This document shows, in pieces, positions 10,638-35,646 of a stretch of DNA of 37,405 bases (its first letter is position 1; each line of letters opens with the position of its first letter). The notes below the pieces were generated by a model. That model was not told the origin of the DNA. It ran no database searches and saw only the letters and a list, made by a program, of their open reading frames with translations. This DNA is from Bryobacterales bacterium (GTDB taxonomy: Bacteria > Acidobacteriota > Terriglobia > Bryobacterales > UBA6623), in contig JAPPLB010000005.1 of NCBI GenBank assembly GCA_028819575.1, positions 1 through 37,405 of the forward strand, given 5' to 3'. The position numbers and the translations under genes were made by a program.

Positions 10638-10814
10638 CCTGCATTTCTCATCTCCCGACGGTCGAAGCACACGATACGACCGCCAGGACTTCGTTGCGCT
10701 TGCTTGCCGTGCTCGACGTACTGTTCAAGTACGCCTGCGCGCGCCAAGCGGCGCGCGCCTCGTCCTGACGGCCCTCTCACGCACTTCGCCTCGCCGCGTG
10801 GGGAGAAATGCAGG
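10638..10814 (-). repeat. MITE/REP-like repeat copy 2, complete long form
   Basis: The 177-bp element starts with CCTGCATTTCTCA at 10638 and ends with GGGAGAAATGCAGG at 10814. In the orientation of copy 1 it carries the GC-rich arm CGCGGCGAGGCGAAG next to one end and CTTCGACCGTCGGG next to the other, extending the terminal inverted repeats to about 30 bases imperfectly. The last base abuts the stop codon of the Rieske gene. It carries no open frame of its own. Confidence 0.8.
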
Positions 10815-12301: not shown

Positions 12302-12337
12302 GCCTGCATGTCTCATCAGGAGGTGAGAAATGCGGGC
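12302..12337. repeat. compact hairpin form of the MITE/REP-like repeat
   Basis: GCCTGCATGTCTCATC (12302-12317) and GGTGAGAAATGCGGGC (12322-12337) pair at 13 of 16 positions around a four-base loop. These are the two element termini with the interior deleted. It lies between two convergent genes, where an RNA hairpin could act on either transcript. Confidence 0.7.
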
Positions 12338-13584: not shown

Positions 13585-13962
13585 TGCGGATCAACCTCCC
13601 GAAGCTTCATCGTAGCTTGACCCGAGTGCCCTGACAATTCGGTTTCAACCTGCCTTTCTCACCTCGCGGCGAGGTGAGAAAGGCTAGCTAACCCTTACGG
13701 GGTGCGAAACATTGGCTGTTATAATGCCGTTTCGTCGACCGGCGCGCCTCCTGGCTGGGATGTCAGTTACGCATGGGAGACCTTGAAGCCGGTATCTCCG
13801 ACGCCGAAGCCATCGCCGGTCTGGATGTCTCACCGCGCGGCGAGGCGAAGTGGGTGAGAGGGCCGCGCAGCAACACGGTTTTTGCGGTTTTTCACGAATC
13901 ACGAGTTACGAAACACGATTCACGGCCTTTTTTCGCGTGCTTCGGCCGTCGGGTGGTGAGAA
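13585..13962. other. divergent intergenic region carrying two repeat copies
   Basis: This region separates the divergent PLP-enzyme and gatB genes. It holds a compact palindrome (13653-13684) and a longer element (13821-13968), both listed separately. A TATAAT is at 13720-13725 without a good -35 and could serve gatB with a leader of about 230 bases. A short frame opening at the ATG 13773 (MGDLEAGISDAEAIAGL) has coding-like codons but runs into the repeat after about 20 codons; it could be a gene interrupted by the repeat or chance. Confidence 0.5.
13653..13684. repeat. compact palindromic form of the MITE/REP-like repeat
   Basis: TTCTCACCTCGC (13657-13668) and GCGAGGTGAGAA (13670-13681) form a perfect 12-bp stem around a single G, extended by GCC/GGC across a one-base bulge. 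The sequence combines the TTCTCACC terminus with the CGCGGCGAGG arm of the longer element. Confidence 0.7.

Positions 13963-13968
<6 letters not shown>
13821..13968 (+). repeat. MITE/REP-like repeat copy, short-interior form, overlapping the gatB start
   Basis: The left end is CTGGATGTCTCACCGCGCGG followed by CGAGGCGAAGTGGGTGAGAG. The right end is CGTGCTTCGGCCGTCGGG then TGGTGAGAAATGCAG at 13954-13968. The interior differs from copies 1 and 2: it holds a run of ACGA-rich direct repeats (about 13890-13922) instead of their shared 53-base block. The right terminus includes the ATG of gatB at 13963. Confidence 0.8.
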
Positions 13969-15405
<1,437 letters not shown>

Positions 15406-18641: not shown

Positions 18642-18659
18642 GGTGGTGAGAAATGCGGG
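18642..18659 (+). repeat. right-end fragment of the MITE/REP-like repeat
   Basis: GGTGGTGAGAAATGCGGG matches the right terminus of the other copies. No left terminus is seen upstream, so it is a partial copy. It lies between the convergent fpg and guaA genes. Confidence 0.65.
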
Positions 18660-32757: not shown

Positions 32758-35646
32758 ATGAAAAAACTCGCCCGCCAGTGGCTTGTTCCGGTAGTGTGCT
32801 GTGTATGTCTTGCTTGCTCGCCAGGGATCGGCACCCGGACGCGGGTGAACCCGCCTGAGGCGCCCTCCAATCTCCCTTCCGAATCGACCGGCTCTAAACC
32901 GGTGGACGCGGCCCTCGGCAAAGAGTACGCGGTCAACCCTGAAGCCTCCGGTCCGGGATTGGGCGCGGAGGAGGATCCGATCATTGCCGAACCGGAGGAA
33001 GGCAATCTTCCTGCAGTGGAAGAACCTCCCCTCGAAACACCCTCGTCCGAACTCGCTGATCTTGCGGCTGACGCGCCGGATATCGCCGATATCGTACCGG
33101 AATCGGAGCAGGCTTCAGAAGAAGAGTTGGCGCTGATTGACGAGTTGAACGCCATCTCCGTTCCGGAAGACTTCGAGTTGGAGGGAACTCGTCAGGAGCG
33201 TCTGAATAATACGAAATCCGAGTTGCCGGTGGTATTGAACTCGCAGGTCGCTCAGTTTATCAACTACTTCACGGGCCGCCGGGGGAAAAAGACGGTGGTT
33301 CGTACGCTCGAGCGCGCAGGCGCCTACCGGGACATGATCGAGCGCATCCTCGAGGAAGAGGGTGTTCCGCAGGAAATGTTTCATTTGGCCCAAGCCGAGT
33401 CTGGTTTCCGTCCCATGGCTCGCTCCCGGGCCCTCGCCACCGGGATGTGGCAGTTCATGAAGTTTCGTGGCCGTCAGTACGGCCTGCGTCAGGACAAGTA
33501 CATCGACGAGCGTTACGACCCCGAGAAGGCCACCCGCGCGGCGGCTCGTCACTTGCTTGATCTGTATATCCAGTTCGGCGATTGGTACCTTGCCATGGCT
33601 GCATACAACGGCGGACCCAATCGGGTGAAGCGCGCTGTTCAGCGCACCAAGAGCTACGACTTCTGGACGCACAGCCGGCGGCGGTTGCTCCGTCGCGAGA
33701 CCCGTAACTATGTCCCGATCATTCTCGCGATGACATATGTCGGGAAGAATCTCGACATGTACGGGATTGAGATTAAAGATCCGGCGCCGCCGCTTGAGTA
33801 CGACACGATCGAAACAGACTCGGAGATCCATCTCGATCTCATCGCGGACATAGCGGGCACGACGGCAGAGGCAATCAAACAACTGAATCCGGCGCTGCTG
33901 CGTTCGGCGACACCTCCGTATTCCTATGACTTGCGGCTGCCGCAAGGGTCGGGCAAGACGTTCGTCAGCGAGTTGCAGGCAATCCCGAAGGAAAAGCGTC
34001 TCGCTTGGCGGCGCCACAAAGTACGGGAGGATGACTCCCTCGCGGCGATCGCAAAGCGGTACAAGATCCAGCAGTCACAGATCCTGGTCCACAACCAAGT
34101 CCAGGATGAGGGTCTTGCCGCAGGCTCCTGGCTCACGATTCCTACGCCGCAGAGGAGGCTGCGCTACTACCGTTCATCAGGTGGCGGCGCCGGTGGTTTT
34201 CTCGAACCCGGCACAGGAAGGTACCGCATCGCGCGCGGAGATACGCTGGGGGGCATCTCCCAACGGTTTGGTACGTCGATCGCCAACCTTAGAAATTGGA
34301 ATGGTCTGTCGAGCACTCGCATCATTGCCGGCCGGTATTTGATCGTCAAACCGGAAGGCGTCGGAGCCAACGCCGCTTCAGCAAGTTCGCGCCCACCGTT
34401 GAATTCGCGAATGTACCGCATTGCAAGTGGCGATACGCTCGGAACCATCGCGCGCCGGTTCGGCATCAGCGTAGCGCAGCTCAAGGCCTGGAATGGGCTG
34501 AACAGCAATCGGATCCGAGCGGGCGATCGCCTGATCGTTGGTGAGAAACCGGCTCAGCGTCCGGCAACGTCAAGCCGGTCGAGTCAGACCGCAAGCAGCC
34601 GATCGACGGGCGGCTCAGTAGCAGGACCTTCTGAAGGTGGGCAGTATCGAATCCGCCGCGGTGACAACCTTGCAACGATCTCGTCTCGCTTCGGTGTCAC
34701 AGTAGAGGATCTCAAAAGATGGAACGGGTTGCGGTCGAGCCGGATCAGAGAAGGGAAATACTTGATCGTCCGGCCCCGTTCTAGGACAGCAGCTTCGAAC
34801 TTGGCGGCATCAAAAAGCAGTAGCCGGACCATTGCTAACCCTGTTAGCGGGAGCGGGCAGCAATACCGGATTCGCCGCGGCGACAACCTCGCGTCGATCG
34901 CGCGGCGCTTTGGCGTCAGCGTTAACGACCTCAAAGCGTGGAACGGTTTGCGCGGCACGAGGATTACGGCTGGTGAGAACCTCATTGTCAGTCCGGAACG
35001 GAGAAATGCCGCAAGCGAGGCCCCGGTTCGAGTTGCTGCGAGGAAGGAGGCAGCGGCGTCGGCGCGTGCATCCAAACCGACGATCCACACCATTCGCCGC
35101 GGCGACAGCCTCGGTGCGATCGCGGAACGGTACGGCGTCACCGCTTCCGAGCTTCGACGTTGGAATGGCATTAGAGGCAATCGGATTACAGCCGGCGATA
35201 CCCTCAAGGTGTATCCCGCAGTCAACTTCCCAGGGACTGAACGGACCGTGTCCGCCTCCAAGCGAATCTCCACCTCGGCTCCTCCGAACGGTGTCTACAT
35301 GATCCGCAGGGGGGACAATTTGGGGAATATCGCGGAACGGTTCGGCGTGAGCATCAGAAACCTGCAGCGCTGGAATGGTCTGAATGGGACGCGTATCACG
35401 GCAGGCCAGACACTTATCGTCAGCGGGACGGTCGCAGCAAAGAATGGCAGCGGGGCGACGACGCTTGAAGCGACAGGCAAGATTCGCTACCGGATCCGTC
35501 GAGGGGACTCGCTTGCCGTCATCGCCAAGCGATTCGGTGTCAGTGTGGACGATCTTAAACGCTGGAACGGCTTGCGCACCACTCGCATTCGCGAGGGGCA
35601 TTATCTTACCGTCTCGCCGGGTGCCAAAGATGGAGACGGCTCCTAG
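32758..35646 (+). CDS. MltD-like lytic transglycosylase lipoprotein with eight LysM domains
   Basis: A 962-residue envelope enzyme. A lipoprotein signal (MKKLARQWLVPVVCCVCLAC) is followed by an acidic, low-complexity linker to about residue 130. The SLT transglycosylase domain occupies about 190-310 with catalytic Glu214 in AQAESGF, then ATGMWQFMK and MAAYNGGPNRV. A degenerate LysM-like segment (about 350-390) precedes eight clear LysM domains from about residue 420 to the end, each with the pattern YRIRRGDNLATIS...RWNGL...RI..G..LIV. E. coli MltD has only two or three. The enzyme would cleave the glycan strands of peptidoglycan, with the LysM tail anchoring it to the wall. The repeats are closely alike, suggesting expansion by duplication. 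Confidence 0.93.
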   Translation: MKKLARQWLVPVVCCVCLACSPGIGTRTRVNPPEAPSNLPSESTGSKPVDAALGKEYAVNPEASGPGLGAEEDPIIAEPEEGNLPAVEEPPLETPSSELADLAADAPDIADIVPESEQASEEELALIDELNAISVPEDFELEGTRQERLNNTKSELPVVLNSQVAQFINYFTGRRGKKTVVRTLERAGAYRDMIERILEEEGVPQEMFHLAQAESGFRPMARSRALATGMWQFMKFRGRQYGLRQDKYIDERYDPEKATRAAARHLLDLYIQFGDWYLAMAAYNGGPNRVKRAVQRTKSYDFWTHSRRRLLRRETRNYVPIILAMTYVGKNLDMYGIEIKDPAPPLEYDTIETDSEIHLDLIADIAGTTAEAIKQLNPALLRSATPPYSYDLRLPQGSGKTFVSELQAIPKEKRLAWRRHKVREDDSLAAIAKRYKIQQSQILVHNQVQDEGLAAGSWLTIPTPQRRLRYYRSSGGGAGGFLEPGTGRYRIARGDTLGGISQRFGTSIANLRNWNGLSSTRIIAGRYLIVKPEGVGANAASASSRPPLNSRMYRIASGDTLGTIARRFGISVAQLKAWNGLNSNRIRAGDRLIVGEKPAQRPATSSRSSQTASSRSTGGSVAGPSEGGQYRIRRGDNLATISSRFGVTVEDLKRWNGLRSSRIREGKYLIVRPRSRTAASNLAASKSSSRTIANPVSGSGQQYRIRRGDNLASIARRFGVSVNDLKAWNGLRGTRITAGENLIVSPERRNAASEAPVRVAARKEAAASARASKPTIHTIRRGDSLGAIAERYGVTASELRRWNGIRGNRITAGDTLKVYPAVNFPGTERTVSASKRISTSAPPNGVYMIRRGDNLGNIAERFGVSIRNLQRWNGLNGTRITAGQTLIVSGTVAAKNGSGATTLEATGKIRYRIRRGDSLAVIAKRFGVSVDDLKRWNGLRTTRIREGHYLTVSPGAKDGDGS

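Follow-up and report, generated by a model that had tools for sequence, protein, structure and literature searches.

A probable IS1380-type miniature inverted-repeat element with a conserved one-strand fold in a Bryobacterales genome

The window analysed here is a complete contig (C69) of 37,405 nt from the 5.37-Mb Bryobacterales genome G000. An earlier note on this DNA described inverted-repeat termini recurring at six places, all of which exist. The copies, together with the gene that one of them enters, are as follows; R2 denotes a covariance model whose E-values, like those of the related model R1, are rough, and G003 is the sister genome Bryobacterales bacterium APA_bin_29 (JAPOOG010000058.1, locus L090).

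1–159, + strand (folding strand +): truncated copy, cut at its 5′ end, with an intact right terminus at 145–159; R2 match over model positions 28–177.
10638–10814, − strand (folding strand −): full-length 177-bp element with flanks CCAG/TCAG; full-length R2 match (156 bits, E 1.7e-35).
12303–12336, no strand assigned: putative 34-bp remnant, two termini and a 4-base loop; the orthologous site in the sister genome holds a ~150-bp element (R2 match L262:9763–9909).
13649–13687, no strand assigned: putative 39-bp element remnant; the same site in G003 holds a 174-bp element.
13820–13969, + strand: 150-bp variant element interrupting gatB at its ancestral 5′ end (R2 E 9e-9); missing from gatB of genome G004.
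13963–15405, + strand: gatB, encoding aspartyl/glutamyl-tRNA amidotransferase subunit B (PF02934 1.1e-121, PF02637), with an ATG inside the element terminus.
18645–18659, + strand: isolated terminus with no partner within 400 bp.

Terminus sites with up to three mismatches number 12 in the window, against 0.87 expected in shuffled sequence. Only the one at 145–159 is perfect, the remainder carrying one to three mismatches. The truncation of the copy at 1–159 comes from the contig boundary: the window is an entire contig, and its first base falls within the element. This copy and the one at 10638–10814 are mutually inverted and do share an interior, as the earlier note held, over an extent that we correct from 53 bases to 94 nt at 83% identity and 56 nt at 91%. 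At the site of the 10638 copy, G003 carries a truncated copy in the opposite orientation. Given the ~150- and 174-bp counterparts in G003, the 34- and 39-bp copies are most simply read as remnants of longer elements. The description of the copies as always lying between genes was mostly borne out, but failed for the 13820 copy, which interrupts what was ancestrally 5′ coding sequence of gatB. Elsewhere in the window, a 962-aa ORF (32758–35646) contains six degenerate 55-nt direct repeats (34013–35348), ~210–400 nt apart, which by appearance resemble repeated LysM-type domains, a putative assignment.

In G004 the N-terminal region of gatB runs through without a break (MEALEMRIADPATVAKYETVIGLEVHVQLG). 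The ancestral start is out of frame in G000, and in G003 its frame ends at a TGA within the terminus. The right terminus of the 13820 copy offers a Shine-Dalgarno-like GGTGAG and an ATG, and in both genomes the ATG of this start sequence (GGTGAGAAATG) is the first in-frame start before the conserved GatB domain. Translation of gatB thus probably begins at the terminus ATG. Start-codon donation by the terminus as a genome-wide phenomenon was rejected for G000, where the ATG frame of 307 termini was not enriched for long open frames (40 vs 65 and 24 in the other frames; 23 vs 38 and 17 after a codon-bias filter). In the sister genome the ATG frame was higher under the same filter (15 vs 8 and 3). 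We therefore take gatB as one isolated strong case. Separately, in G003 an element (L237:12048–12244) lies a few bases upstream of an apparent fmt gene (MRVVFMGTPAFAVPT) and supplies an ATG that is in frame and five codons ahead of the native one; this site is empty in G000.

Genome-wide, the termini are not limited to the window, and the copies have common boundaries. The 15-base terminus, allowing up to two mismatches, occurs 1263 times (642 + 621) in the 5.37-Mb genome, compared with 6 times (5 + 1) for a reversed control pattern; from this terminus count we estimate ~600 copies, roughly 2% of the genome. The terminal inverted repeats (TIRs) span 15–17 bp, with a 15–16-bp repeat, CCYGCATTTCTCACC, as the presumed recognition sequence. 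Within the 1.44 Mb read directly, 115 convergent terminus pairs lie within 400 bp, their lengths peaking at 176/177, 186/187 and 201 bp and extending up to ~300 bp, and 105 of the 122 neighbouring termini up to 400 bp apart are convergent. The element is short (177 bp), has TIRs and lacks a transposase gene, its longest open frame being at most 59 codons.

A rough ORF caller places 16–17% of copies deep within an ORF; the figure is 44% for YTAR sites and 73–81% for random points. The intergenic bias is thus due in part to target choice and in part, probably, to selection. Contig ends of G000 fall inside a copy at 55/83 starts and 34/48 ends (~66–71%), against 9/500 random points; the repeat is chiefly responsible for the assembly breaks in G000 and explains the high fragmentation of this assembly. 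In a sizeable minority of G000 copies, the interior is replaced by unrelated modules of the CACGAATCACGAG type, which makes the core inessential for residence and not strictly required for spread. At L032:7965–8242, L037:18151–18431 and window positions 13880–13930, we observed the core replaced by modules of short tandem units (CACGAATCACGAGTCACGAAACACG) in longer or variant copies.

The earlier note saw no transposase with matching ends in the window; in the genome as a whole, G000 has two intact IS1380-family genes (PF13701 3e-148). NF033539 matched the two transposases at 4e-115 and 3.2e-115 (scores of 385 bits against a cut-off of 180 bits). Both IS1380 copies measure ~1.72 kb, start with CCYGCATTTCTCACC and finish with GGTGAGATATCCGGG, and their target duplications read CTAA/CTAA and CTAG/CTAG. 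The second is inserted in a copy of the short element, whose paralogs show an uninterrupted CTAG (GCGCCTAGTCC). Alignment of the short element's end with the IS1380 copy at L052 revealed 16 identical base pairs followed by no similarity, ruling out an internal deletion of the resident IS1380 as its origin. IS1380 relatives in many phyla have CCYGSATTTCTCACC ends and mostly CTAG or CTAA flanks, in a search that favoured matching flanks. The two G000 copies (L051:1257–2979 and L052:1256–2979) are themselves nearly identical save for a central block in the transposase gene (alignment columns ~910–1430), as if a segment had been received from a diverged relative.

The flanks of the short element likewise conform to YTAR (CTAG, CTAA or TTAA, mostly CTAG). 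Left and right 4-mers are equal in 26/114 pairs (23%), against 10.9 in shuffled pairings; unequal flanks are often one transition apart, even between perfect TIRs, where 7/25 pairs are identical. Comparison with the sister genome revealed collinear empty sites, with G003 elements facing a single CTAG or CTAA in G000 and a G000 element facing TTAA in G003, supporting insertion with a 4-bp duplication. One G003 element is flanked by TTAG/CTAG and its empty counterpart reads CTAG, so unequal flanks also occur at a genuine junction. Imprecise duplication by the transposase is disfavoured as their source by the finished genome of Singulisphaera acidiphila, in which IS1380 copies show exact 4-bp duplications in 14/14 cases. 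Unequal flanks may instead reflect age, homogenisation of interiors and TIRs, and the mutability of CTAG. At sites common to G000 and G003, interior lengths often differ (190 vs 279, 149 vs 256 and 232 vs 208 bp), and copies appear to swap TIRs and interiors, with the short flanks drifting meanwhile. At several sites the insertion is not common to the compared genomes.

These common ends, common targets and empty sites, together with the copy number, are what the sequence itself displays, and on this basis the repeats in G000 are very probably an IS1380-type MITE. The proposal of a non-autonomous MITE mobilised in trans, made in the earlier note, is thereby supported: IS1380-family elements resident in G000 share its termini and its 4-bp YTAR target.

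Nearly the entire element forms an imperfect palindrome, and on one strand its full length folds into a single long, imperfect hairpin. In alignment A3, both-side changes affected 27/52 pairs, with 112 double-change cells against 35.8 in shuffled data and at most 22 in slid controls. The reverse strand folded better in 35/36 sequences (−107.7 vs −92.5 kcal/mol). We then considered alignment A7, made with MAFFT on the reverse strand and not model-fitted, which includes phylum members found with R1. Here, double changes were present in 46/54 pairs; with the TIRs masked, they were present in 34/38, with 280 double-change cells against 86.1 shuffled (0/500) and at most 68 in slid controls, a control that ignores relatedness. 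Mean z-scores of the interior were −5.6 on the folding strand and −3.6 on the other. When the helices were folded without wobble pairs, G.T exceeded A.C among single mismatches (82 vs 37, p 4.5e-5 with copies treated as independent). Together, the G.T bias, the better-folding strand and the covariation point, in our judgement with good confidence, to selection on one folded strand. As wobble pairs are common and such mismatches would weaken a DNA hairpin, we lean towards RNA rather than single-stranded DNA as the selected molecule. Rfam 15 gave no hit in the window at gathering score and none at E ≤ 1 in eight element loci.

The alternative that survives best is that of an ordinary MITE in which template switching between the arms of the quasi-palindrome generates apparent covariation without selection. 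Arm correction by template switching is established for quasi-palindromes, and the near-complete palindromy of the element and its lack of an orientation bias both fit this process. However, template switching yields perfect Watson–Crick arms, whereas here mismatches are kept and biased towards G.T on one strand. In addition, conservation extends to stretches around GGATACAAGG and CAACGCAGTAGAC that are asymmetric and mostly unpaired, and length is held at 172–180 bp in most carriers. We therefore regard this explanation as unlikely.

Less likely still is a cis-regulatory repeat kept by the host, with mobility being secondary. Roles as an RNase III site, mRNA stabiliser or terminator have been proposed for ERIC and NEMIS (PMC2229807) and provide a precedent, and both the long stable hairpin and the scarcity of copies inside ORFs relative to YTAR sites agree with it. 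Against it, the folding strand shows no sense preference relative to flanking genes (36 sense vs 33 antisense, p 0.81), leaving a strand-dependent effect in cis on neighbouring mRNAs unsupported; orientation is also unbiased with respect to GC skew. Insertions that differ between genomes at several sites and a patchy distribution further weigh against host function. We prefer the interpretation that the fold serves the element itself rather than neighbouring genes.

A REP/BIME family mobilised by a RAYT (Y1 transposase), the other option raised in the earlier note, shares the palindromic, intergenic and high-copy character of these repeats but is very improbable given elements of ~177 bp with IS1380 transposon TIRs and 4-bp YTAR duplications at empty sites, and the short window copies read as remnants of long ones rather than as 20–40-bp REP units. 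Equally improbable is a misjoining of copies and flanks during metagenome assembly: contig breaks at copies and the many mismatched flank pairs would fit, but the same sites, flanks and elements recur in the separate sister genome, and the empty sites are collinear.

The distribution of the MITE was then assessed at increasing taxonomic distance. Termini with at most one mismatch number 1041 in G000, 538 in G003 and 11 in G004; within the family, bulk carriage occurs in the genus only. Homologues of the 177-bp consensus were detected in 21/257 genomes of the order (13/84 genera), mostly 175–177 bp long with CCYG-type ends and CTAG usually on both sides. Model R1, built from 19 elements, matched 13/399 genomes of the class and 51/396 genomes sampled over the phylum Acidobacteriota (36/211 genera), nearly always over all 177 positions. 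Among 36 genomes picked for related IS1380 genes, R2 matched eight, with some counts including both strands of one element: a Chlamydiota MAG (40 matches), an Acidobacteria MAG (22), Deltaproteobacteria CSP1-8 (20), Azoarcus taiwanensis (10), a Desulfobulbaceae MAG (8), a Pseudomonadales MAG (3), Scalindua (3, weak) and a further Acidobacteriota MAG (1, weak). The Acidobacteria MAG of locus L154 has hit coordinates identical to those of G631, one of the phylum genomes matched by R1. The element thus occurs in Gammaproteobacteria as well as in Chlamydiota, Azoarcus and Desulfobulbaceae, and sequences read from R2 carriers are mostly 172–180 bp with YTAR-type flanks.

An IS1380 gene above the cut-off was present in 6/28 element-bearing genomes of the phylum and 1/28 without the element (p 0.10), and most element-bearing draft assemblies outside this genus show none. 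Drafts lose repeats, yet another transposase could act in carriers elsewhere. R1 had no match near IS1380 copies of other phyla in 65 loci, and the G000 consensus had none in the plasmid records searched. The elements of CSP1-8 (L341 and L342; 159–162 bp) and Scalindua (L344) have a similar folded core with different terminal repeats (TGCACCGTCTCGTAAATA with CTAG flanks, and GTTGGACTAAAACTG), which suggests that the core can combine with other ends.

The open literature, with subscription papers outside the scope of our search, yielded no account of this element family. Its IS1380 parent type (NF033539) has the same terminal repeat, CCYGSATTTCTCACC, and 4-bp YTAR/CTAG duplication but measures ~1.7 kb and encodes a transposase, and the interior of the MITE shares nothing with it beyond 16 bp. 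Correia/NEMIS, CIR and RPE differ from this family in termini, lengths, targets and hosts. Like it, they are small bacterial palindromes that move, and they give rise to folded transcripts or to gene fusions in frame (PMC2229807, PMC10969869); the terminus of the present family would provide a start codon rather than an in-frame insert. MITEAba12, paired with ISAba12, keeps its target duplication in 40% of copies and reaches at most 22 copies per genome (PMC6382973). Like it, the family described here is short, lacks a transposase, has TIRs matching a resident IS and target duplications, and is presumably mobilised in trans. Unlike it, this family has ~600 copies, an IS1380 parent and YTAR targets, and across genera and phyla it keeps a conserved interior whose pairs covary.

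ERIC reaches up to 711 copies in Photorhabdus (PMC10969869). ERIC/IRU elements are likewise imperfect palindromes (~130 bp for ERIC), high in copy number, intergenic and conserved beyond species, and RNA-level effects have been proposed for them. ERIC has been described from Enterobacteriaceae and Vibrionaceae with no assigned IS1380 link, whereas the present family spans several phyla. ERIC targets TA, compared with YTAR/CTAG here. We regard the family as an ERIC-like, structured mobile element.

Overall, we consider it likely that the repeats are an IS1380-type MITE with an old interior module whose fold selection has preserved. An IS1380-family transposase supplied from another place in the genome would recognise the terminal repeat CCYGCATTTCTCACC and move the element to YTAR (mostly CTAG), duplicating 4 bp, with mobilisation in trans deduced from the shared ends and targets. 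The interior would be neither filler nor a shrunken IS but an old module that retained its fold as its sequence changed. Copies would decay to 34–39-bp terminus pairs or swap interiors, and the host may occasionally co-opt a terminus as ribosome-binding site and start codon, as proposed for gatB. More tentatively, the interior could be a mobile structured RNA that is transcribed from a single strand and that depends on itself to propagate, carried across phyla and re-fittable with new termini, as the CSP1-8 and Scalindua elements suggest; such an RNA may recruit or regulate the transposase, or protect the element.

Bacterial MITEs are usually viewed as short-lived debris of one IS, with arbitrary interiors. 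Here, the interior has the same fold and almost the same length in several phyla, and its wobble pairs belong to a particular strand. In addition, gatB offers a clear case of a core gene whose translation probably starts in a transposon end. If confirmed, these findings would mean that the interior of a MITE can have a function, and the persistence of ERIC-like palindromes would become testable in a family with a known likely transposase.
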